Positions 7,019 to 30,910 of a stretch of DNA of 54,190 nucleotides are shown piece after piece. This DNA is from a virus: the IMG/VR virus record IMGVR_UViG_3300003267_000167, positions 1 through 54,190 of that record. One strand, given 5' to 3'. The notes below the pieces were generated by a model. That model saw nothing but the letters and a program-made list of their open reading frames with translations. It was not told where the DNA came from and did no database searches. Every line of letters begins with the position of its first letter. Position 1 is the stretch's first letter. A program made the position numbers and the translations under genes.

Positions 7019-10000
7019 ATGGCGGATCAACAGATTGACACTCTGCTAAGATTTTTGGGCGAAGATGCCGGGGCGCTGGCGGCCATCAATGCCGTGTCTG
7101 CATCCTTGCAGGCGGCGGCCGCGCAGAGTCAAGCCCTGTTCGCGCCCATAATCGCCCAAGCGGCGCAAGCCGCCTCCGTCGTGCAGACGCTTACGACCGC
7201 GACGAACGCCGAAACCGACGCAGCCACACGGGCGGGCGGCGGCGAGCGCGAGCGCGCGTCAAGCGTCCTGGCGTTGGCGCAAGCCGTCGCGCGCTTGCAA
7301 GTCGCCGAAGGCAACGCGGCCGGCGCGGTGCAAACCCTCAAAGCCGCCTTGAGTGAGGCCGAAGCGGGCACCGTTCAATACGTCAACGCCCAACGGCAGC
7401 TTGTCACAATTGAGGCGCAGCTTGCCAATGCGGCCAGCAAGGCGGATGCCGAGATCGTCAAGCAGGCGTCCACACTCGCACGGCTGGCGCAAGTCTCCGG
7501 CGACTCCGCCAAGGCGCTGAAGATCATTGAGGACGCCCAAGCGCGGCTTGCGAATCCCAACTCCCTGGCGGCCGCGCGCCTGGAAATCCAAAAGACGTAT
7601 CTTAATACGAACTACGCGAATAGTCCGCTAGTCGGGATGCTGCAACAGATCAACGCCGGCCTTGGCCGCTTTTCGCCCTTACTCGGTTCAAGCGGCCGGC
7701 TAGTGCAGACCTTCACGGGCGGTCTCGCGCAAGCGGCGGCCAGTTTGGGCAGCACGAAGGCGAATCTTGACGCCAACGCGGACAGCGCGAATAAGTTTTT
7801 CGAGCGGTTGCGGAATGCGAATCAAGCCGTCGTGGATTTTGTCAAAGATCAGAAGGGCGAAGCCAGCGCGACGGACTTCTTTTTGAATTTATCGAAACAG
7901 GCGAGCGCGGCCGGAGATCGCATCCGGTCGGTTTTCGCCAATATCCGGCAATCGCTCGAAAATGCCCTAGGACCGAGCGGCGGCGGAAATGGCCTCGTTA
8001 CTACCCTTGGGCTAGGAAACGTCGCGCCAGCGGCAAACCAGGCGACAGCAACGCTATCAGGCTTGACGACGGCCGCCGAAGGGTCGGCCGAAGGCTTGGG
8101 CGCGGTCGGCGCGGCGGGCGGCGCGTCGGCGCTTGCCTTGGGCGCAGTGGTCGGCGTCGTCCTGGCCTTGGTTGCCGCGCTGGCGATCCTAATCACGTCG
8201 CTAACAGCCGGCACGAAGCTTTTAATTGACATGGGGGAGGCGGGCGTCAAGGCGAACGCCGACCTTGAGCATTTAAACCTTGGCCTGGCGTCCGTGATAA
8301 ACGGCATCGGCGAAGTGAGCCGGAACGGGATCAAACTGACCGGCGCGGAACAATTCCAAGCATCGCTCGCGCTGGCGACGGATCAAGTCACCAAACTCCG
8401 GCAAGAGGCGGCCGCCGTGGGCTTGCCCGTGCAAGAGGTTGTGGAGGGCTTGCAGACCACAGAGGGGCCGCTAACCCGCTTCGGTCTGAGCTTGGACGAC
8501 GCCCGCAAAACAACCATTAACATCGCCCTGGCGATGAACGCCTTGGGCATTCCCTTACGTGAAATCGGCCAGGAATCGCGCGCCATCCTGCAAGGCCAGA
8601 CCGACCGGACCGCGCGCTTGAATCAAATCCTTCAGATCACCAAAGAAGAGTTGGCCGCCGCCAAGGCGCGGAACGACGTGCAAGGCTTACTGAATGAACG
8701 GTTGGCCGGTTTCGCGGCCGGAGGCGCGGCCTTCGCGCAATCCTTTGACGGCGCGGTAGCGCGGGCACAATCCCGATTGACCGACCTTGAGCGGACCGTC
8801 ACGGGCGGATTATTTGAGGCGTTAAAGACGAAGCTTAACGACGTGCTAGATTCCGTCGCCAAGGCGGGCGGGCTTCAAAACCTTTTCGGCGGCATTGCCG
8901 ATACCCTCACGCGCATCTTTGACACGGCGGGCGGGACCATCGGCAAGGTAATTGATTTTATTTTTTCGAGTCTGCAAGCCGTTGACCGCTTCCTAGCGCA
9001 AAACCGGGAGACGGTCGGGGAGATCATCGAAGAGGTAAACCAAATTATTACCCTGATAGGCAGTACCGTCGCGGGCGTTTTGCGAATCACGCTTGGCGCA
9101 CAAGACGCCGGCAAAGAGGCGAACGTTTTAGCGGGCATCTTGCGCGCCGTCGTGGTTATCGTCGGCCTGGTCGGCGACGGGATCAAGATATGGATTTCCT
9201 CTTTCCTGACGGTCGGCAACGCCTTGAAATTGGCCGTCATTGCGCCGCTTGAGGTCACGGTGAAGCTTTTCGCGGCGCTGGTCTCCGGCATCCCGTTTAT
9301 CGGGGCGGCGGCCGACCGGGCGGCGAACGCCCTGGAATCGTCGCGCAAGTCCGCCGTCGCGGGCGTTACGGAGAGCGCAAAGAATTTCGCATCATCCATT
9401 GCGAACATCGGCCAGGCGTCCAAGCGCGCGAGCGAAGCCATAGACGAAGCCCGAAAGAAGGCGGCGGCCGGCCAGCGCGTGACGGCGCAAGCGGGCGCAC
9501 CGTCAACGGCGGGTCTCGCCTTTCAGGCCAGGCCGGGCACGCCGGACGACAAAAACAAGGGCGGCAAAGGGGCACTGGACGCGGCGCGGGCGTCGGCCGA
9601 AGCCCTATTGCGGATCACGCAGCTTGCCGAAAAAGAGGCGGCGCTTGCCAATCAACGGATCACGAACGCCCTGCGGCAATCGCTCACGGATCGTTTGATC
9701 TCAATCGAGACCTTTACGGAGCTTTCGATTCAGGCGGAGCGGGACTTGCTAGACGCTAAGCGCGCGGCCTTTGACGCCGAAGAGAAGGTCATTAACGACG
9801 GCGCGGCCAGCGAAGAGTCGGCGGCCATCAAATCGAGCAAAACGCGCGAAGCGGCCGCCAATAAGATCACGGCCATTGACGCCAAGCGGAACGAAAAGCT
9901 GGCGGAGTTAAACTTAAAACGCCAGGCGGCGGAGCAAGAGGCGGACATTAAGACCGAAGGCTTGCGCGACGATCTCCGGCGCGCGCAAGAGAAAAACGAG

Positions 10001-11341
10001 GAAGATCATCAAAACCGCCTCATTGCCATCTTGGAAGTCGGCCGGCGCGCGAGGGAGGCGAGCATCCGCACGTCGGCGAGCGTCGGCCTTGTGAGCTTTG
10101 AAGAGGCGGAAAAGCGGCTTGTGGAGATCGAGCGGGAGCGGTTCGCCGAACGGGAAGGCGCGTTAAACGCCGACCTAGAGCGGGCGCGTGAAGACGTGGC
10201 CAAGCGGGCGGAGATCCTAGACGAGCTGGCCAGGCTGGCGGCCGAACGCGCGGCCTTTGAAGAAGACGCTTCCAAGCGGATCATTGACGCACAGAAGAAA
10301 GAGGCCGAAGGCTTCACGGACTTAATCACCAAGCGCGTCCGGGCGCTTTCGGACTTGCGCCGGGCGCAGATTGACGCGCAAGCGGCGGAGACCGTCTTAG
10401 CGTTACAGCGCGGCACGATCACGCGCCAGCAAGCCGACGTGGCTGGATTTCAGCAGCGGCGCGAGCAATTGCGGATCGAGTCCGAAGAGAGAAAAGCCGC
10501 CATCCAGCGCGAAGCCTTGGACCTAATCGAACAAGCTAAGAATCGCGCGGGCGCGGCCGCCGCCATCGTGGACATTGAGCGCGTCAAAAACGAACGACTC
10601 AAGGCGGAGAAAGAGCGCGCGGCGGCCGAAGATGCGGCGCTCGAAAATCAGCAAAACGCGGTACGGCTTACGCCCATCTTCGGGGAGGACGCGGCGCAAC
10701 GGATCGCGGCCTTTGAGCAGACGACCGGCGCGGCCGCAACCACACTCGAAAAGCTACAGCTTGCCGCCCAAGCGACGGCAGACAGCTTGAGCGAGAGCTT
10801 GCCGACCATCGGAGAGCTTTTCGATCAATCCGCGCTGGCGGTTGCGAACGCCTCTGCAACGATGCTTTCAAGCTTCTTGAGCGGCAAAGAGCCAATCCGA
10901 AAGGCGGCGGCGGCCTTATTCGCGGCCGCGCTGCAACCTCTCAAGGATTATCTAAACAAGCGCGCACGGGCGGAGTTCGCCATCGCGGCGGCGGAGTTCG
11001 CGGCCGGCAACTATGTGGGAGGCGCTAAGCACACGCTCGCCGGCATCGCGCTAATCGGCGCGGCCGCGCTGATTGACGTAGGCGCGGGCCTCATTGGCGG
11101 CGGCGGGTCGGCGGGCGGCGCAATCGCGGGCGGCGGCGTCTCTTCGTCGGGCGGCACGCAAGACACGGGGCCGCGCGTGATTTCACAGGACACGCCGCGC
11201 CCGCAGCTTGTACCCGTGGTCATTCGGCCGGAGCTTAATTTCCGGGCGGACCTGACGGGCGGCATTCTTTCAATCGTCCATGACGACATCACAAACAACG
11301 GGCGCACGCGCGCCTTGATACAAGAGACCAACCCGGTTTGA
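7019..11341 (+). CDS. tail tape measure protein
   Basis: At 1440 residues, the largest product in the window. It has the long Ala/Gln/Lys/Glu-rich helical and coiled-coil composition of tape measure proteins, which fix siphovirus tail length and pass through the cell envelope at DNA injection. Hydrophobic segments lie at about residues 370-398 (ALALGAVVGVVLALVAAL) and 704-765, followed by heptad-rich coil from about 860 to 1240 and a Gly-rich end. At roughly 1.5 angstrom per residue it predicts a tail near 200 nm. ATG 7019 follows the hairpin at 6973-7006 with no clear ribosome site; GTG 7011 is an alternative start. Confidence 0.92.
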   Translation: MADQQIDTLLRFLGEDAGALAAINAVSASLQAAAAQSQALFAPIIAQAAQAASVVQTLTTATNAETDAATRAGGGERERASSVLALAQAVARLQVAEGNAAGAVQTLKAALSEAEAGTVQYVNAQRQLVTIEAQLANAASKADAEIVKQASTLARLAQVSGDSAKALKIIEDAQARLANPNSLAAARLEIQKTYLNTNYANSPLVGMLQQINAGLGRFSPLLGSSGRLVQTFTGGLAQAAASLGSTKANLDANADSANKFFERLRNANQAVVDFVKDQKGEASATDFFLNLSKQASAAGDRIRSVFANIRQSLENALGPSGGGNGLVTTLGLGNVAPAANQATATLSGLTTAAEGSAEGLGAVGAAGGASALALGAVVGVVLALVAALAILITSLTAGTKLLIDMGEAGVKANADLEHLNLGLASVINGIGEVSRNGIKLTGAEQFQASLALATDQVTKLRQEAAAVGLPVQEVVEGLQTTEGPLTRFGLSLDDARKTTINIALAMNALGIPLREIGQESRAILQGQTDRTARLNQILQITKEELAAAKARNDVQGLLNERLAGFAAGGAAFAQSFDGAVARAQSRLTDLERTVTGGLFEALKTKLNDVLDSVAKAGGLQNLFGGIADTLTRIFDTAGGTIGKVIDFIFSSLQAVDRFLAQNRETVGEIIEEVNQIITLIGSTVAGVLRITLGAQDAGKEANVLAGILRAVVVIVGLVGDGIKIWISSFLTVGNALKLAVIAPLEVTVKLFAALVSGIPFIGAAADRAANALESSRKSAVAGVTESAKNFASSIANIGQASKRASEAIDEARKKAAAGQRVTAQAGAPSTAGLAFQARPGTPDDKNKGGKGALDAARASAEALLRITQLAEKEAALANQRITNALRQSLTDRLISIETFTELSIQAERDLLDAKRAAFDAEEKVINDGAASEESAAIKSSKTREAAANKITAIDAKRNEKLAELNLKRQAAEQEADIKTEGLRDDLRRAQEKNEEDHQNRLIAILEVGRRAREASIRTSASVGLVSFEEAEKRLVEIERERFAEREGALNADLERAREDVAKRAEILDELARLAAERAAFEEDASKRIIDAQKKEAEGFTDLITKRVRALSDLRRAQIDAQAAETVLALQRGTITRQQADVAGFQQRREQLRIESEERKAAIQREALDLIEQAKNRAGAAAAIVDIERVKNERLKAEKERAAAEDAALENQQNAVRLTPIFGEDAAQRIAAFEQTTGAAATTLEKLQLAAQATADSLSESLPTIGELFDQSALAVANASATMLSSFLSGKEPIRKAAAALFAAALQPLKDYLNKRARAEFAIAAAEFAAGNYVGGAKHTLAGIALIGAAALIDVGAGLIGGGGSAGGAIAGGGVSSSGGTQDTGPRVISQDTPRPQLVPVVIRPELNFRADLTGGILSIVHDDITNNGRTRALIQETNPV

Positions 11342-13166: not shown

Positions 13167-16100
13167 ATGCAGAATGTTTCATCGTCAATGTATGCGGCGC
13201 TGAATACCAGTCAAACGGACTTGGTTAAGGGCGATCTCTTTGAGTTTTACGATCCGAGTGTGACGGACCTTTGCCCTGGCAATGCAACCAAGCTCTACGC
13301 CGGCACAAGCATCGTGTGGCTGGGCTATCAGTACGAACGCCAGGCGCTAGGGCACGGGGAAATCTCGCGGTACATTGACGAACGGTTTGCGACCGTCAAT
13401 ATCAATCTTTCAAACGTTGACCGTAGCGTTTCGGCGTGGATTGGGAGCGTGGAAGATCGTTTGGAAGGCTGGCGCGTACTTGTCCGGGCGGTCTCAAAGC
13501 ATGTGGATGATGATTCCGTCGTCATGGGGGTCTTTCGCTGTGAGCCTGTGGATAAGGTCAATAACAAGCTTGTGCAGATCACGGCGAAGCAATCACTAGG
13601 CTCCATCAATACCGAATTGCCTTGGGGCAAAGAGTCGCCGAAATGTCCGCTCGTTTTTAAAGGCGTTCGCTGTCTTGGCGGTATTCCGCTAGGCTCACAC
13701 TCCGCCGCCTATCAGGCAGCAACCACATGCGACAAGTCGAAACAGCAGTGCGCGGGCTATTCCAACTTGCCGGCCTTTCAAGGCGAGTGGTTTAACGCGG
13801 TCACGGCCAACTTCAAAGTCTCCCAACGGCGCGGCGGCGCGGGCGGCGCACTCCTGGCGCTTTTCGGATCGCCGAATAAGCGCGTTACAAAACAGCATAG
13901 CTCTCAAGACGCTTCATCCATCGGGACGCCGACGCCGATTATCATGGGCGCGGCACAAGTCGAATTTGTGCCCTTGCAGACGGACGACACCGGGCAATAC
14001 CTGGCCGGCCAGTGGATGATAGGCGCGGGCAGGCTCACGAAGATTCAAAACGTCCACACCATTACAAGCGGCTGGGATAACAACTTCCAAGCCTACGCCG
14101 AACACAAAGGCGCGTTGGGGTATGACGCCGAACAGATACCGGCCGGCTACTTCGCCAGCCAGGACCAACGCCATAGCCAGAAAGGCTACGTTGAGATCAC
14201 GATTAAGGGAGACAACCCGGACACGGGCGATCCTGCGCCAACCATCGTCGGCCGGATCATGGGGATTAAAGTGCCGGCGTGGACGGGCACCACCTTCGGG
14301 GCGGACGCCTTTTCAGACAACCCGGTTGACCATTGCCGGGCGATCCTGACCGATGAGCGGAGCTTAAAATACAATTCGGCGTGGATTGATGAGATCGAAA
14401 GCGGGAAGACGGCCGACTTTTGCAGTGAGCCGTTAAAAGACACGACGGGCGGCGAAGATATTTACCTGAGCCAGAACGCCGGCACGCCGGGCACGGATTA
14501 TAAGCGATACCGCTCTAGCGGAGTTTTAGACAAGTATTACTGGCGGTACGTTATGGGGCTGGATGCGGATCATTCGGCCGTCAAGGAAATTACCTATCAC
14601 ACGTTCAACCCGGCCGCCGCGCCCATTTCGCCGACGCCTTCAACCGTCTACCGGAAGCGATACACAAGCAACTTCGTCATTCGGGATACCCTCCCAACGA
14701 TAGACTTTTTGTATCAGTACCTATTGCCGGCCTTCCGGGGCTACTTCATCACGTCGGCGCAAGGCAAGCTACAGATCAAGGCGCGCAAACCGACGATCTC
14801 TAGCTTCATCCGCAACAACTTATCCATCGGCGCAACCGCCATTCCGGTTGAGGACGCCTTAGCCTGGCGGAGTTTGAATCTGCCCGTTATCTTCGCGCTG
14901 GTCGGCGTCGGCCTCTCCACATCGGAGACGCGCGAAGTCACTTCCATTGACTTCAGCACGGCGGGTAATTCCATCACCCTGGCGGCGACGGGGAGCGCGA
15001 CGGCCAGCGGCGCGACGCTCGCCGGGGGATCGTCAAGCGCGCAAGCCCAAGGCACCATCACGATAGGGTCAATCGCGGCCGCTTCCGTCACGATTGACGG
15101 CGTGATCGAAAGCTACACGCCCGGCACGGACGACACCACGGGCACGATAGCGGCGATGCTCGCCACACAGATCAACGCCAACGCGACGATCAACCGATTC
15201 GCCGAAGCCCTTTGGACAAAGACCCTCCCAACACAAGTAATCATCCGCTCGAAATTGGGCATTCTAAACGTCGCGCCGTTGACCTACGCGCACAACCAAC
15301 TTGAGACCGTCGCGCACGTCCACATGGTTTTTTCCGACGTGGCAATGGGCGCACTCTCGCGCGGGAACATTTTGGAGGATTCCTTTGAATGGCCGTTCGG
15401 CGGCAAAGTGGCGAACTATAACAAGTTTGTCTGTAGCTATCAGTCTGCGCCCGACGATTATCAGTTGCTTGAGGTTGACGAAATAGACGAAGCCAACATT
15501 GAAAAGATTAACAAGACGAACAAGAAAGAGATCAAGGGCGGTTGCATTGATAACTACCATCAGGCGCGTCGGTTAGTGGTTGCGGAGCGGTATACCTACC
15601 GAGAGGGTAACTACTTCGTGCAGATCAAAACCGATGACGCGCGCTGTCTGTTACTTGAAGAGGGGGATTTCTTTTGCGCGACGCATAACAACCAACCCAA
15701 CCAACGGAACATGATGTTTACGGTTGAGGAACTAAAGGTATCGGACGGGAGCGGGAACAACGATCTCCATACCGTAACTCTGCTAGGGCGGTTGTATGCC
15801 GACGATCAATTTCCGCTATCGGCGGACCAACGGACGATCTCAAGTACAACCGGCGTGGGTTGGCCTTCCAATGCGCCGGGGCCGGTTACTTCCCTTGTGC
15901 TGACATCAACGCAACCCTTCACGGTGCATGGGAGCTTCACGTTTGCCAACTTCATCGGACCGCAACGCGCCCGGATCGAAGTCGAACGCGCCGGGACGAC
16001 CGGCTTTATGGACACCGGGCTTTCGATCCTGCCCGACGCGAGCAATAACGGATCGTTTGATTTGTCCGGCCTGCCCGCGGGTCTTACGTCCGTGCGCGTG

Positions 16101-16256
16101 ACGGCGATCTCGATTGCGAGCGGCGCCGAAAGCTCGCCAGTCACCGGCACCGTGACGGTTTTAGACTTTGATTTTGAAATAGACTTGAACGCGGACGGCG
16201 TTACCCTTGAAGTGGTTCAGGAGGACGACGGAAGCGGGCCTTTAGTCGAGGGGTAG
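13167..16256 (+). CDS. tail tip hub protein with gpL-like cysteine quartet
   Basis: A 1029-residue central tail protein. The N-terminal region (VMGVFRCEPVDKV, then SPKCPLVFKGVRCLGG, and later TTCDKSKQQCAGYSNL) places four cysteines near residues 159, 168, 187 and 194, followed by an FQGEW segment. This spacing and context resemble the lambda gpL iron-sulphur domain. The long middle (residues about 280-900) is hub-like, with receptor-domain strands, and the C-terminus (about 910-1010) looks like a fibronectin-type III module. It appears to merge gpL- and gpJ-like functions. It follows the distal tail gene by 3 bases and precedes the distal fibre by 5. Confidence 0.7.
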   Translation: MQNVSSSMYAALNTSQTDLVKGDLFEFYDPSVTDLCPGNATKLYAGTSIVWLGYQYERQALGHGEISRYIDERFATVNINLSNVDRSVSAWIGSVEDRLEGWRVLVRAVSKHVDDDSVVMGVFRCEPVDKVNNKLVQITAKQSLGSINTELPWGKESPKCPLVFKGVRCLGGIPLGSHSAAYQAATTCDKSKQQCAGYSNLPAFQGEWFNAVTANFKVSQRRGGAGGALLALFGSPNKRVTKQHSSQDASSIGTPTPIIMGAAQVEFVPLQTDDTGQYLAGQWMIGAGRLTKIQNVHTITSGWDNNFQAYAEHKGALGYDAEQIPAGYFASQDQRHSQKGYVEITIKGDNPDTGDPAPTIVGRIMGIKVPAWTGTTFGADAFSDNPVDHCRAILTDERSLKYNSAWIDEIESGKTADFCSEPLKDTTGGEDIYLSQNAGTPGTDYKRYRSSGVLDKYYWRYVMGLDADHSAVKEITYHTFNPAAAPISPTPSTVYRKRYTSNFVIRDTLPTIDFLYQYLLPAFRGYFITSAQGKLQIKARKPTISSFIRNNLSIGATAIPVEDALAWRSLNLPVIFALVGVGLSTSETREVTSIDFSTAGNSITLAATGSATASGATLAGGSSSAQAQGTITIGSIAAASVTIDGVIESYTPGTDDTTGTIAAMLATQINANATINRFAEALWTKTLPTQVIIRSKLGILNVAPLTYAHNQLETVAHVHMVFSDVAMGALSRGNILEDSFEWPFGGKVANYNKFVCSYQSAPDDYQLLEVDEIDEANIEKINKTNKKEIKGGCIDNYHQARRLVVAERYTYREGNYFVQIKTDDARCLLLEEGDFFCATHNNQPNQRNMMFTVEELKVSDGSGNNDLHTVTLLGRLYADDQFPLSADQRTISSTTGVGWPSNAPGPVTSLVLTSTQPFTVHGSFTFANFIGPQRARIEVERAGTTGFMDTGLSILPDASNNGSFDLSGLPAGLTSVRVTAISIASGAESSPVTGTVTVLDFDFEIDLNADGVTLEVVQEDDGSGPLVEG

Positions 16257-21767: not shown

Positions 21768-22298
21768 ATGAAAGAAAGACTAAGGAAGATTTACGAACTA
21801 GCAACGCGCGGCGTAGGAGGCGAGCGTGAGAACGCTCAACGATTACTTGAGCGGCTTTTGGCGGAGCACAACTTAACTATTGAAGACCTGGCCGGCGACG
21901 AAAAGAAGCTTTATTACTTCCGATATTCAGAGGGATGGGAAAAGAAGTTAATACTTCAGATTGTGGCCAAGGTAACAAACGTAAGCACTATTGAACCTTG
22001 GGTGCGTAAGGGCTGGCGAAAAGCGCGCGGCTTTGAACTGACGGCGGCGGAGTTTGCGGAGTGCCAACTACTGCTTGAAGAGTACCGCAAGGCATACCGG
22101 AAAGAGTTGGAACGCCTTTTCAGTGCATTCGTTCAACGTAACCGGATTTTTGGGGATGGCAAGGCCGACGAATCCAACACGACGCCGGAGCAATGGGCGG
22201 AGCTTGAGAAAGTCCTAGCGATGGCGCGCAGCCTTGATGTGGTCCCGATACCGCGCAAGCGCCTTGTAGAAGGCATATCAGAGGGGGTAGAGATATGA
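21768..22298 (+). CDS. DUF2786-like protein
   Basis: A 176-residue protein whose N-terminus matches the DUF2786 pattern: KIYELATRGVGGERENAQ, then LLERLLAEHNLTIEDL. Proteins with this helix-rich domain are common in phages and mobile elements, and their function is unknown. Residues 50-130 continue with a second helical domain (WEKKLILQIVAKV, ECQLLLEEYRKAYRKELE). It starts behind TTAGGAGGCCAAAC and overlaps the helicase start by 4 bases, which suggests a joint role with it. Confidence 0.65.
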   Translation: MKERLRKIYELATRGVGGERENAQRLLERLLAEHNLTIEDLAGDEKKLYYFRYSEGWEKKLILQIVAKVTNVSTIEPWVRKGWRKARGFELTAAEFAECQLLLEEYRKAYRKELERLFSAFVQRNRIFGDGKADESNTTPEQWAELEKVLAMARSLDVVPIPRKRLVEGISEGVEI

Positions 22299-25200
22299 AT
22301 AACACATGGCAACCAATTATGGCCGCGCTTCGCTATCTCGCCGGCCTTTGCGACGGCGCGCAGTCGGAAGACGGCCAAGGCTTCAATAAACCCGACTCTT
22401 TGCGCTGCAAACGTTGGGCGGCGCTCGAAAGCTTGAACGAACGCCAGGCGCGCGACGCTTACGACCGTCTCCGCAAGTACACGGCGCAGCTTGACGCGGG
22501 CGGGATAGACTTCACCAAGCTGCCCGTGCCGCCAAACGAGCGGTTGCAGGCGTCGGACCTGATACGGCCGAACGCCGAACAGTCCAAGCGGCGGGACACG
22601 GACGCCCGCGCGATCCGGGCCGGGAAAGACGCCGAAGGGGATCACTTTCAACTTTCCTGGCCGTATTCCGACGTTGCCGCATTGCTTGAGCCGATGAAAG
22701 ACCATTTCACGGCGCGGCGGTACGTGCAGCAACCCTACAAGCATTGGCGCGTACCGGCCGACTACCGCGCCGCGCGCCTGATGGAGTTCGGCGTTGCGTA
22801 TGACTTTGAAATTTCGCCGGAGGCGTGCGCCTTGTTCGACTCCATCACCATCCCTGACGCCTTGCCCGAAGGCGAAAAGCCCAAACACCCGGACCGCATC
22901 ATCAAGCGCGATCTCTTTCGCCCGGAGCGCAAAGGGAAAGCGCCGAAAGAGGGCATCGGCATTTATTTCGATTACGTGCCGGCGATTCACGCGGCCGTCA
23001 AGGAAATGGTCTCGCCGCAGTATTTCGGCGAAGGCGCGCGGCATTGGGTCGTCTCGCTCGATTCCGCCGCCGCCGTCGCCAAGCTCGCGGCGGAGTTCGG
23101 TTTCAACGTCGAACCGGAGACCCGCGCACTACTCGAAAGCGAAGCCGCCAAGGCGGACGCGGCCGCCAGCCTGGCCGCCAAGCGAAAGGCCGTCTTGATG
23201 AAGGCGGCCGAAGATATCCCGCGCGGCAACTTCGGCGGCAAAACGCCGCGCGATTATCAGGCGGCGGGCGTCAGTCGGATGCTTGAGGCCGGGCGCAGCA
23301 TCCTGGCCGACGATATGGGGCTGGGGAAAGGTCAACCCGCAAGCGGCAAAGTTGCGACGCCTAACGGCTGGCAGATGATTGGTACTCTTCGGCCGGGGGA
23401 TTATGTTATCGGGTCAGATGGCAAGCCTGTTAGTGTGCGCGCCGTTTACTTGCGCGGCGTACTACCAATCTTCAAAGTAACTTTTTCGGATGGCTCAAGC
23501 TTAGATGTAGACGCCGACCATATTTGGACCGTCAAGGACCACAACACACACCATAGGGGCGGAGATTGGTACACGATGACCACACGCGAGCTTATGCTAA
23601 AGGGTCTAAAGGATGGCAACGGTAACAGGAAATACCGTATCCCGATGGTAAAGCCCGTAATCTTTGACCATCAGGACTTACCTTTTGATCCGTACCTAAT
23701 GGGCGTCTTCTTAGGGGATGGAAGCTTTAGCAGCGGGTACAACTTCAACATCTGTACCGGAGATGAAGCCGTACCCGCCGAATGCATGCGCGTGATGCCG
23801 CGCGGCGCGAGTCTTGAAAGGATCGAACCGAAAGAGCGCGCTGTCTATTGGAAGCTTCGCGGATTTTCGCGGCCTCTCTTTGAATCGCTTGGGCTGCTAG
23901 GCTCAAAGGCTGAAACCAAGCAAATTCCCTGGCAATACATGCACGGATCGCCCGACCAAAGACTAGCCCTGTTACAAGGCTTGATGGATACAGACGGCAC
24001 GGCGAGCTTAGATGGTTGCGTGTCTTTTTCGTCGGCAAGCTCAAAGCTCGCGCGTGGTGTTATTGAGTTAGTTCAATCTCTCGGAGGTACGGCGCGGCTT
24101 AGCCTGAAACGTGCGCCAAAGTTTAGCTATAAGGGCGAACAGAAAACCGGGCAACCGTCATGGATCGTAACGCTAGCAATGCCGGAGAGGATGAATCCTT
24201 TTCGGGCTTTTGCGTCTCGCTATAAAGAGCGGACGAAATACCCGCCGCAACGGCTAATCGAATCCATTGAAGCTTACGGCCAAGATGAGGTTGTATGTAT
24301 TTCGGTTGACGCGCCCGACTCGCTTTATGTAGCAGAGAGCTACATCGTTACCCACAACACGTTTGAGGGCATGCTGTGGGCAAGGTGCTACCAACGGGCG
24401 TTCGGCGCGCACGTCTTCATCGTCTGCCCGGTTGCCCTAATGGGCGGATGGATCGAAGAGGCGGCCGCGTGTCACGTCCGGGCGGAGGTTTATTCATGGG
24501 CGAAAGTGCCGCCGCCGCCTTCGTCGCCCTTCGTGCTGATATGCGACGAAGCCCACTATGCACAGTCCATTAAAAGCCAGCGAACGCAAGCCGTCCTAGA
24601 GCTATCGGAAAGCGAGCATTGCCTTGGGGTCGTCATGGCGACGGGGACGCCCATGCGCGGCGGCCGGCCGGTTAATATCTTCCCGCTACTGAAGGCGGTC
24701 AAACACCCCTTGGCGCGCAATAAGTCCAAGTTTGAGGAAAGATACTGCGCGGCGCATCAACGCACGGTCCGCACGGGCGGCCGGACGGTCAACATTTGGG
24801 ACACGACCGGCGCGGCGCACCTTGACGAATTGATGCGGGAGATTGCGCCGCAATTCCTACGCCGGACGAAAGAGCAAGTGTTGAAAGACTTGCCGGCAAA
24901 AACGATCCTGCCCAAACCCGTGGACGTGGACGCCGAAGGCATGGCGATTTATCAGGAAGCTTTCAATAAAGCCCAAGCGCAATATAACGACCGGCTGGCA
25001 AAGGGCGAAATCAAGGAAGGCGCGGAGGCGCTTGTCTTATTGACGCACCTAAAACGCGCGGCCGCGCTCGCGATGGTCAAACCGGCGATTGACCTGGCGG
25101 ACGAAGTAATAGAGCAAAAGCGCAAGGTCTTGATGTACTCGGAATACCCGGAGGTCTGTGAAAAGATCGCGGCGCATTACCGATCGCAAGGCGTCGGCGC

Positions 25201-25630
25201 GGAAGTCCTAACCGGCCAGGTAAAGGCGGAGGACCGCGACACGTCGGTTAAACGTTTCCAGTTTGGCGCGTCGCGCGTCTTTTGTCTGACGAAGGCCGGG
25301 GGCGTCGGCCTGACGTTGACGGCCGCGTCTGACGCTTTCTTAGTAGATCAGCCTTGGATGTGGGATGACGTCGCGCAGATCGTTGACCGGCTACACCGTA
25401 AGGATGCCGTCATGGCGGAGCGGATCGAAGCCGGCCAGGCCATGCCGGTCAACGCCTATTTACTGTCCGGCTTTGAAGTCAATCAGAAAATTCAAGCGCG
25501 GCTTTTTGACCAACGGCGGGCGCTTGGGAAGGTCATGGCCGGCGACCGGCGCACGATGCGGGGCGTTCAAAGCGTCCACGATATAGCCAAGGAAATCGCG
25601 CATGAACTATTCGGAGGGCAAAACAAATGA
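22295..25630 (+). CDS. SNF2-type helicase with HARP-like modules, interrupted by an intein
   Basis: A 1111-residue precursor. Residues about 110-290 hold two HARP-like modules ('HFQLSWPY...KHWRVP' and 'GIYFDYVP...HWVVSL'), as in SMARCAL1-type annealing helicases. The Walker A motif GLGK-T is split by an intein (residues 346-688). After it come VLICDEAHY (motif II), MATGTPMRGG (III), and C-terminal helicase motifs TKAGGVGLTLTAA and QIVDRLHR. The mature helicase would be 768 residues; without splicing it lacks the Walker A Thr in place. SNF2/HARP enzymes remodel forks or anneal strands, consistent with nearby ERF and RusA recombination genes. Confidence 0.88.
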   Translation: MNNTWQPIMAALRYLAGLCDGAQSEDGQGFNKPDSLRCKRWAALESLNERQARDAYDRLRKYTAQLDAGGIDFTKLPVPPNERLQASDLIRPNAEQSKRRDTDARAIRAGKDAEGDHFQLSWPYSDVAALLEPMKDHFTARRYVQQPYKHWRVPADYRAARLMEFGVAYDFEISPEACALFDSITIPDALPEGEKPKHPDRIIKRDLFRPERKGKAPKEGIGIYFDYVPAIHAAVKEMVSPQYFGEGARHWVVSLDSAAAVAKLAAEFGFNVEPETRALLESEAAKADAAASLAAKRKAVLMKAAEDIPRGNFGGKTPRDYQAAGVSRMLEAGRSILADDMGLGKGQPASGKVATPNGWQMIGTLRPGDYVIGSDGKPVSVRAVYLRGVLPIFKVTFSDGSSLDVDADHIWTVKDHNTHHRGGDWYTMTTRELMLKGLKDGNGNRKYRIPMVKPVIFDHQDLPFDPYLMGVFLGDGSFSSGYNFNICTGDEAVPAECMRVMPRGASLERIEPKERAVYWKLRGFSRPLFESLGLLGSKAETKQIPWQYMHGSPDQRLALLQGLMDTDGTASLDGCVSFSSASSKLARGVIELVQSLGGTARLSLKRAPKFSYKGEQKTGQPSWIVTLAMPERMNPFRAFASRYKERTKYPPQRLIESIEAYGQDEVVCISVDAPDSLYVAESYIVTHNTFEGMLWARCYQRAFGAHVFIVCPVALMGGWIEEAAACHVRAEVYSWAKVPPPPSSPFVLICDEAHYAQSIKSQRTQAVLELSESEHCLGVVMATGTPMRGGRPVNIFPLLKAVKHPLARNKSKFEERYCAAHQRTVRTGGRTVNIWDTTGAAHLDELMREIAPQFLRRTKEQVLKDLPAKTILPKPVDVDAEGMAIYQEAFNKAQAQYNDRLAKGEIKEGAEALVLLTHLKRAAALAMVKPAIDLADEVIEQKRKVLMYSEYPEVCEKIAAHYRSQGVGAEVLTGQVKAEDRDTSVKRFQFGASRVFCLTKAGGVGLTLTAASDAFLVDQPWMWDDVAQIVDRLHRKDAVMAERIEAGQAMPVNAYLLSGFEVNQKIQARLFDQRRALGKVMAGDRRTMRGVQSVHDIAKEIAHELFGGQNK
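23330..24358 (+). other. class 3 LAGLIDADG intein in the helicase Walker A motif
   Basis: A 343-residue in-frame insertion between Lys345 and Thr689 of the helicase. It starts with Gly (GQPASGKVATPNGW), not Cys or Ser. Block B has the sequence ADHIWTV with its Trp, block F has DEVVCISVDAPDSLYVAESY with its Cys, and the insert ends VTHN before extein Thr: the WCT set that defines class 3 inteins. Two LAGLIDADG motifs are present (LMGVFLGDG and LLQGLMDTDG), so a homing endonuclease domain is included. Codon use in the insert is more A/T-rich than in the flanks, which suggests later arrival. Confidence 0.88.
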
Positions 25631-28681: not shown

Positions 28682-30910
28682 ATGGAATATGGCGAATTTT
28701 TAGCGTCGAAAGCGGCGCGGGTTGAGGACGCGGGGAAAGACCCGCAGTCAATTAACCGGCTTTTATTCACATGGCAGGCCGATATCGTCAAATGGGCGAT
28801 CAAGCGCGGGCGCGCGGCGATCTTCGCGGACTGCGGCATGGGCAAAACCCTGATGCAAGTCGAATGGGCGCGACAAATGGGCGAGCGCGTGCTAATCGTC
28901 GCGCCGCTCTCCGTCGCGCAGCAAACCATCGAAGAGGCAAAAAAGCTGAACGTAGAGATCGTCTACAAAGCCGCGCCGGATGATTCAGGCGGCATCTGGA
29001 TTACGAACTATCAAAAGCTTCATAAGTTTGTCGGCGTGCCATTTGATGCCATCGTGCTTGACGAATCTTCGATCCTCAAAAGCCTGGACGGCAAAACGCG
29101 CACGCTCTTACTTGAGCAATTTACGACCATCCCGTACCGCCTTTGCTGCACGGCGACGCCAAGCCCGAACGATCAGACGGAGCTAGCCAATCACGCGGAG
29201 TTTTTGGGCGCAATGTCGCGCGTTGAAATGCTCGCCACTTTCTTCGTCCACGACTCCGACCGGGCAGGGTCAAACGGCTGGCGGCTGAAAGGGCATGCGA
29301 AGGATGACTTTTGGCGATGGGTTGCACAGTGGGCCGTGTACATTCGCAAGCCGAGCGACCTAGATCACCCGGACGGCGATTTCATCCTGCCGCCGCTCAA
29401 CGTCCGCCAGGTACAAGTTGAATCGAACTTCATCCCAGACGGAAAGCTATTCCCAGACATTACGGCGGGCATTACCGGCCGCACGCAGGCGAGGCGTCAC
29501 ACGATGGACGCGCGCATCAACCGGGCGGTAGAGATTATCAAGAAATCAAAAGGGCAGTGGGTTGTGTGGTGCGGATTGAACGACGAAGGCCAGAAGATCG
29601 CCAAGGCGCTAGGACAGAAGGCGGCACTCATCGAAGGATCAACCGACGATGAATCACGCATCACGCTTGAGTCATGCTGGCGCGCGGGGAAGGTCAAAAC
29701 GCTCATCACGAAGCCGGGCATGTTCGGCTTCGGCCTCAACTGGCAGCACTGCCATCAAGTCATGTTCCTTGGGTTGGGGGATAGTTTCGAGCAGTGGTAT
29801 CAGTCCATCCGCCGATGCTGGCGATTCGGGCAGAAGTCGGCCGTTGATGTGGTCGTTGTTACGTCCGACGCGGAAATCAGCATCGTCGAAAACGTACAGC
29901 GCAAAGAGCAGCAGGCGTCCGAAATGGCGGCCGGCATCGTCGCCGCGATGAAGGACGCCCAAATTGAATCGGTACTTGGTAAACTTTCACGAAAGGATCA
30001 TTACACGATGAAAACGAAAAAGGCGGAGCAGTGGGAAGTCAAAATGGGCGATTGCGTGGAACGGGTCAAAGAGATCGAGACGGGCAGCGTCGGGCTGTCA
30101 ATCTTCAGTCCGCCGTTTAGCCAGCTTTATACGTATTCGGCCAGCGATCGCGACATGGGCAACACGAAAGATCACGCGGCATTTTTCGATCATTTTCGAT
30201 TTTTGATCCCTGAGCTACTGCGCGTGACGATGCCGGGCCGGCGTTGCTGCGTCCACGTTCAGCAAGTCGCACAGACGCTCGTCAAAGATGGCGTGATAGG
30301 GTTGTACGACTTCCGCGCCGACGTGGTGCGCGAGTTCGTCAAGGCGGGATGGGTTTACGATGGCGAAATTGTGATTGACAAAAACCCGCAAGCGCAGGCC
30401 ATCCGCACGAAGGCGAAGCAATTAATGTTCGTGCAAAAGAATAAGGACAGCGCATGGAGTCGTCCCGCGATGGCGGATTACATCCTGCTCTTTCGCTCGC
30501 CAGGCGCTAACGCCCAACCTATTACGCAATCGGCGACCAGTGGCGTCACCAATGAAGAATGGATCAAGTACGCGCATCCAATCTGGTACGACATCAACGA
30601 ATCCGACACGCTGCAATATACGAGCGCGCGAGAGCATCAAGACGAAAAGCACATCTGCCCGTTGCAGCTCGAAACCATCCGCCGATGCGTCCGGCTGTGG
30701 TCGAATCCGAATGACTTAATCCTTGACCCGTTCGCCGGGATCGGGTCAACCGGGCATATCGCAATGGAGCAGGATCGGCGATTCGTCGGGATCGAACTGA
30801 AGGAGTCGTATTGGAAGCAGGCCGTTAAAAACCTTCAGAACGCGGTCAAACAGCAAGCACTCTTCACGCCAGGAAGGGAAGCGCATGAATCCGTCGCCGT
30901 CCCCGCTTGA
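28682..30910 (+). CDS. DEAD-like helicase / DNA methyltransferase fusion
   Basis: A 742-residue two-enzyme protein. Residues 1-440 form an SF2 ATPase: CGMGKT (51-56), IVLDESSILK (motif II as DES), CTATPSPND (III) and a C-terminal half ending SIRRCWRFGQKSAVDVV. Residues 450-735 form a beta-class DNA amino-methyltransferase: SPPF near residue 475 (motif IV), then 'DPFAGIGSTG' near 681 (motif I), with FVGIELKESYW. The order IV then I defines the class; target N4-cytosine or N6-adenine. No restriction nuclease is nearby, so self-protection or regulation is likely. It follows the attenuator with ribosome site AAGGAG. Confidence 0.88.
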   Translation: MEYGEFLASKAARVEDAGKDPQSINRLLFTWQADIVKWAIKRGRAAIFADCGMGKTLMQVEWARQMGERVLIVAPLSVAQQTIEEAKKLNVEIVYKAAPDDSGGIWITNYQKLHKFVGVPFDAIVLDESSILKSLDGKTRTLLLEQFTTIPYRLCCTATPSPNDQTELANHAEFLGAMSRVEMLATFFVHDSDRAGSNGWRLKGHAKDDFWRWVAQWAVYIRKPSDLDHPDGDFILPPLNVRQVQVESNFIPDGKLFPDITAGITGRTQARRHTMDARINRAVEIIKKSKGQWVVWCGLNDEGQKIAKALGQKAALIEGSTDDESRITLESCWRAGKVKTLITKPGMFGFGLNWQHCHQVMFLGLGDSFEQWYQSIRRCWRFGQKSAVDVVVVTSDAEISIVENVQRKEQQASEMAAGIVAAMKDAQIESVLGKLSRKDHYTMKTKKAEQWEVKMGDCVERVKEIETGSVGLSIFSPPFSQLYTYSASDRDMGNTKDHAAFFDHFRFLIPELLRVTMPGRRCCVHVQQVAQTLVKDGVIGLYDFRADVVREFVKAGWVYDGEIVIDKNPQAQAIRTKAKQLMFVQKNKDSAWSRPAMADYILLFRSPGANAQPITQSATSGVTNEEWIKYAHPIWYDINESDTLQYTSAREHQDEKHICPLQLETIRRCVRLWSNPNDLILDPFAGIGSTGHIAMEQDRRFVGIELKESYWKQAVKNLQNAVKQQALFTPGREAHESVAVPA

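Follow-up and report, generated by a model that had tools for sequence, protein, structure and literature searches.

A predicted class 3 intein bearing a LAGLIDADG homing endonuclease at the Walker A motif of a viral SNF2-type helicase

Class 3 inteins are recognized by a set of three residues, WCT, defined in the accessible text of PMC3196547 as Trp at block B:12, Cys at block F:4 and Thr at block G:5. In the available parts of two crystallographic studies, this set is described as Trp67/Cys118/Thr137 in M. smegmatis DnaBi1 (PMC6195587) and as Cys124-His65-Thr143 together with Trp67 in M. chimaera DnaB1 (MchDnaB1, PMC7664689). DnaBi1 sits in the P-loop of its host, DnaB, according to the former. 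The position between the Lys and Thr of this loop is called the 'classic' P-loop insertion site in the accessible portion of PMC5050341, where an intein in a HepA-related helicase is also tabulated for C1 mycobacteriophages. An Snf2-family protein of Deinococcus radiodurans carries a class 3 intein that was spliced in a model precursor, as reported in the available text of PMC3196547. This pairing of class and host family has thus already been published, and the intein described here is another member of an established type that leaves the general understanding of inteins unaltered. It shares class and host family with the Deinococcus element and differs in that the latter resides in a bacterium; on the available account, the two are likened by description, not by sequence or insertion site.

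The window, i.e., the whole stretch analyzed, comprises the 54,190 bases of the virus record IMGVR_UViG_3300003267_000167. Its relevant features are given below. Counts refer to 97 aligned inteins (the window intein, 16 from phage records and 80 from IMG/VR loci) and, where stated, to 80 bacterial/MAG loci, altogether 177 class 3-like inteins whose signature residues were examined. These sets were gathered by similarity to the window intein, and the counts therefore describe its family and not inteins generally.

22295..25630, plus strand: SNF2-type superfamily 2 helicase precursor, 1111 residues with the intein (open reading frame, Pfam, PHROG)
22295..23329, plus strand: N-extein, 345 residues, with GLGK of Walker A at its end
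23318..23329, plus strand: first half of Walker A, GLGK
23330..24358, plus strand: predicted class 3 intein, 343 residues, G1-N343 (protein residues 346-688)
23519..23521, plus strand: block B His64 (His in all 97, and in all 80 bacterial/MAG loci)
23525..23527, plus strand: block B Trp66, the W of WCT (Trp in 95 of the 97, and in all 80 bacterial/MAG loci)
23690..23722, plus strand: LAGLIDADG motif 1, PYLMGVFLGDG, with catalytic-type Asp130 (Asp in 93 of 97)
23966..23998, plus strand: LAGLIDADG motif 2, ending in GLMDTDG, with Asp220 and Asp222 (each Asp in 96 of 97; LAGLIDADG_3)
24296..24298, plus strand: block F Cys323, the C of WCT and predicted first nucleophile (Cys in all 97, and in all 80 bacterial/MAG loci)
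24350..24358, plus strand: block G Thr341-His342-Asn343, i.e., the T of WCT, His and cyclizing Asn (T in 95, H in 97 and N in 97 of 97)
24359..24361, plus strand: +1 Thr, predicted second splicing nucleophile and Thr of Walker A (T in 84, S in 12 and C in 1 of 97)
24359..25627, plus strand: C-extein, 423 residues, carrying the remaining helicase motifs
28682..30910, plus strand: another SNF2-like helicase, in fusion with an N6/N4 DNA methyltransferase (N6_N4_Mtase 2.8e-25, Pfam)

The host reading frame (22295-25630, plus strand) is open throughout its 1111 residues. Its two helicase matches in Pfam, SNF2-rel_dom (PF00176, 4.9e-16) and Helicase_C (PF00271, 4e-12), both exceed their cut-offs, and comparison with PHROG returned the DNA helicase family phrog_62 (9.4e-56). 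By this domain test the host is an SNF2-type helicase, with SNF2_N and Helicase_C domains, a Walker A motif split as GLGK|T and a Walker B motif DEAH. The initial annotation had called it an SNF2/HARP helicase, of which the SNF2 part stands. HARP (PF07443) produced no match to the window protein, whole or in N-terminal parts, and among four records it reached only sub-threshold scores in two, L181 (14.1 bits) and L182 (13.1 bits), against a cut-off of 25. The N-extein had no match in a PDB sequence search or among phages, and its predicted structure (pLDDT 44.8) was too poor for use. Similarity of the host to anti-phage defence models such as ZorD/DpdE is confined to the SNF2 region and is taken as a reflection of shared helicase domains. 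Motif VI of the window helicase is lengthened by approximately 10 residues that separate DRLHR from GQ (around 25397-25438; protein residues 1035-1048), which are missing from L181, L182 and L183.

The borders of the insert can be read from relatives that lack it. Scanning viral contigs with the single C-extein or the intein protein found no close relative; alignment queries later did. An alignment of eight C-exteins retrieved 80 viral loci related to the host helicase, which were scored as empty or occupied by a motif match combined with a blastp test. A Walker A-like motif without a detectable class 3 intein was present in 74 of them, an intein in four, and two were ambiguous. The closest relatives of the host protein are L182, L181 and L183, whose best aligned segments are 38.8%, 38.6% and 37.8% identical to it. 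Walker A is continuous in L181 (GTGKT) and L182 (GLGKT), and the gap in their alignment with the window protein corresponds exactly to the 343 residues G1-N343. Since both relatives lack precisely these residues, the K345|G1 and N343|T+1 junctions are firm. The insert, flanked by DDMGLGK / GQPASG at its 5′ side and ESYIVTHN / TFEG at its 3′ side, splits Walker A between Lys and Thr. Its span of 23330-24358, its separation of GLGK from T and its Gly in place of Cys or Ser at position 1 had all been proposed from the sequence; each agrees with the empty alleles, the first to the base. Intein-free alleles had been named as something to look for in relatives, and L181 and L182 supply them.

The residues of the insert are those of a class 3 intein. 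Position 1 is not Cys, Ser or Thr; W66 occupies B:12, two residues past the invariant His64; C323 occupies F:4; and T341 occupies G:5. W66 and C323 align with the Trp and Cys of 6bs8 and 6rix, the class 3 inteins that are also its best PDB sequence matches (E about 2e-09). In the viral set the T341 column holds Ser in two of the 97, and among the 80 bacterial/MAG loci T341 is kept in 79, with T (72) or S (8) at +1. The initial annotation had likewise listed Trp, the block F Cys and a +1 Thr as the WCT set. All three are present, but the WCT Thr corresponds to T341 of THN and not to the +1 Thr. Its description of class 3 as the rarest class does not hold: in the literature consulted class 2 inteins are known only from KlbA, and 177 class 3-like inteins were examined here. 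Two aligned rows lack the Trp, L030 (His) and L094 (Phe), while retaining the block F Cys and THN; they may be genuine departures from the WCT rule or mere oddities of these sequences.

The predicted fold points to a HINT splicing domain joined to a homing endonuclease domain. The AlphaFold2 model, computed for the intein with five flanking residues per side and 71 relatives, reached a pLDDT of 94.9 and a pTM of 0.93. Foldseek placed PI-SceI first (2.1e-18), followed by the class 3 DnaB inteins 6riy, 6rix and 6bs8 at E values of 2.5e-06 to 1.6e-05, and I-DmoI was also among the structural matches. In VIA-align, the model superposes on PI-SceI (VMA1, 1jva_B) with Z 27.1 over 325 residues at an rmsd of 3.1. 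PI-SceI, an intein of class 1 type, shares the HINT and two-motif LAGLIDADG architecture at 17% identity. Both mycobacterial class 3 inteins have the same splicing fold and WCT residues (Z 19.4 for DnaBi1, 6bs8, and 19.3 for M. chimaera DnaB1, 6rix/6riy), with the 6bs8_C match covering 123 residues at an rmsd of 1.5 and 30% identity. Their solved chains are far shorter (139 and 145-146 residues) than the 343 residues of the window intein, and their host is DnaB. The gp41-1 intein (6qaz), which belongs to class 1 according to the accessible part of PMC7664689, is near in fold as well (Z 18.1), and class is consequently told by residues and not by fold alone.

Relatives of the intein are numerous. 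A tblastn search over 50,697 phage records detected them in 770, and in 732 of these a single place spanned at least 80% of the insert. Pattern scans found at least 579 intein relatives among at least 600 stretches listed from IMG/VR, and at least 574 among at least 595 listed from genomes; the signature residues were checked in 80 of each. The family is widespread in phages and bacteria, and its host proteins, judging from their motifs, may include RecG-like and PhoH-like ones (Streptomyces and other bacteria). With relatives in this many phage records and intein-free homologs that lack exactly 343 residues, a chance likeness is excluded.

Among the matches listed, the nearest inteins are those of the IMG/VR stretches L020 (46% identity) and L057 (45%). 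Both lie, as here, at the Walker A motif of SNF2-type helicases, but their exteins are only about 25-26% identical to those of the window. The approximately 8-kb stretches bearing them, beyond the helicase/intein gene and its overlapping frames, contain no window match save one L057 frame, which is on the reverse strand and also matches the intein region. More distant inteins occur in Mycobacterium phage Pinkcreek gp172 (L002, 39%), Erythrobacter phage vB_EliS-L02 (L003, 39%) and the uncultured phage LR756508 (L010, 35%). These three have in common with the window the arrangement GK|x...THN|T/S, the block F Cys, the endonuclease motifs and a helicase Walker A site, while their host helicases are distant from the window's (23% identity for L003, 25% for L010 and weaker still for Pinkcreek). 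A shorter relative of 274 residues occupies GLGK|T of an SNF2-type helicase in Mesorhizobium phage Cp1R7A-A1 (L018), where the annotated coding sequence begins just upstream of this motif.

The two LAGLIDADG motifs noted from the sequence were seen again, and the Pfam families LAGLIDADG_3 (7.9e-07) and Hom_end (6.6e-05) both match the insert above their curated cut-offs. With both motifs present, their acidic residues intact and I-DmoI and PI-SceI among the structural matches, the insert belongs by motif and predicted fold with the LAGLIDADG homing endonucleases, and its endonuclease is apparently intact. Several observations bear on how the intein arrived. Its GC3 is 0.560 vs 0.774 and 0.714 for the exteins, and none of 115 in-frame segments of equal length (1029 bases) was as low, the minimum being 0.647; these segments overlap and derive from those of 32 stretches (30 hand-picked other reading frames and the two exteins) that were long enough. 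Two short whole reading frames come near the intein value, at 0.588 and 0.606. A tree built from 26 host proteins puts the window helicase within an 11-row group (support 96/97). The intein tree places it near L020, L057 and L003, with weak support. AU tests rejected keeping the window intein with ten inteins drawn from its sister group in the host tree (24 inteins, L040 omitted; p=0.0008) and, on the extein data, grouping the host protein with L020, L003 and L018 (p=2.4e-43), although the groups were named after the trees had been seen and long branches were flagged. The discordance between intein and host trees is good, though not final, evidence of horizontal transfer. Because intein and host have different closest relatives and the GC3 deviates, the window intein was probably acquired horizontally. 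Recent homing is not datable, as the closest inteins among the matches listed are 46% identical (L020) and the closest empty alleles 38-39%.

Taken together, the residues, junctions and model indicate, with high confidence, that the K|T bond of Walker A is occupied by a class 3 intein bearing a LAGLIDADG homing endonuclease, and splicing is predicted. The translated insert would fold as a HINT domain bearing the endonuclease domain. Cys323 would then attack the Lys345-Gly1 peptide bond to give a branched thioester at block F, from which the N-extein would be transferred to the +1 Thr. Cyclization of Asn343 would free the intein, and an acyl shift would rebuild GLGK-T, so that the ATP-binding loop would be present only after splicing. 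During co-infection, the endonuclease may cut intein-less Walker A alleles, into which the intein would be copied by repair. This chemistry and the homing step follow the literature, to which the present analysis contributes the anatomy, junctions, signature residues, predicted fold and discordant histories.

One alternative is a class 1 intein with its real N-terminal junction, at a Cys, Ser or Thr, misplaced. A Ser does lie four residues inside the insert (Ser5), and Ser is found at position 1 itself in 10 of the 97 aligned inteins. The empty alleles nevertheless fix K345|G1, and the junctions of the relatives fall at the same place; a class 1 nucleophile at the true junction, named beforehand as what would overturn the assignment, is not seen in the alignment, which has Gly1 there. 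Furthermore, the class 3 signature is present in the Trp and in a block F Cys that never varies, and NCBIfam detected in the window the C-terminal region TIGR01443 above its cut-off without the N-terminal region TIGR01445, both of which match a class 1-type intein in L183. On these grounds of junction, signature and absent TIGR01445, misplacement is rejected as extremely improbable. It is also very unlikely that the intein is a decayed class 3 element that no longer splices and leaves the helicase dead. The published precedent is the Arthrobacter pseudogene Arth_1007, which, in the available text of PMC3196547, has lost the block F Cys and block B His; moreover, the extra stretch in motif VI, an unusual feature of the window helicase, could signify relaxed constraint. 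Both residues lost in Arth_1007 are kept in the window, the frame is open and the acidic residues of the endonuclease are intact, and degeneration is rejected on this evidence.

The initial annotation named the blocked ATPase a potential control point, a reading in which signal-tuned splicing would hold the helicase back until the right moment. Such a switch draws on the fact that the insertion must break the P-loop, and on DnaBi1, which, according to the accessible part of PMC6195587, is inhibited by oxidation, with catalytic Cys118 forming a disulfide with Cys48. This redox partner has no counterpart in the window intein: Cys48 aligns with Ile47, and Cys occurs in that column in only 2 of the 97 inteins. 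A DnaBi1-type redox switch is therefore rejected for the window intein, and the patchy distribution and discordant history of the element fit a selfish one, such that a conditional switch of any kind merits about as little credence as decay. Hardly more credible is the joint reading in which conditional splicing, by means other than the DnaBi1 disulfide trap, would time the phage helicase after translation or gate it under stress, and intein classes would vie for catalytic motifs across the related phage helicases. Its second part would be represented by the class 3 intein described here at Walker A, by the class 1-type intein that L183 has at Walker B and by the Trp-less class 3-like intein in the paralogous helicase-methyltransferase of L030.

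The window also contains an unoccupied site of the same kind. The helicase-methyltransferase at 28682..30910 has an intact, intein-free Walker A motif, GMGK|T, with its K|T boundary at 28847. In three of its relatives, L030 (44% identity), L021 (39%) and L032 (38%), class 3-like inteins occupy the matching bond. The DNA of the two Walker A sites of the window is identical at 23 of 48 bases, and it would fit this count if the 28847 site were too different from the intein target for cutting. The window therefore adds a well-delimited class 3 intein, its homing endonuclease apparently intact, that is accompanied by empty alleles (L181, L182), an empty paralogous site and occupied paralogous sites in relatives. 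This makes it a usable test case for jumps of class 3 inteins between the Walker A motifs of different ATPases.

Elsewhere in the window, two large reading frames (7019-11341 and 13167-16256; 1440 and 1029 residues) matched nothing in PHROG or Pfam under the limits applied. L183, one of the 74 loci with an empty Walker A motif, carries a different intein elsewhere, an insert of 364 residues at Walker B (DE|CH, L183:2924-4015) that begins with Cys1 and ends in SN|C. TIGR01445 and TIGR01443 both exceed their cut-offs, and by sequence this insert is a class 1-type intein. A search with it matched 37 records at E values up to 0.1, the best at 25.6% identity.
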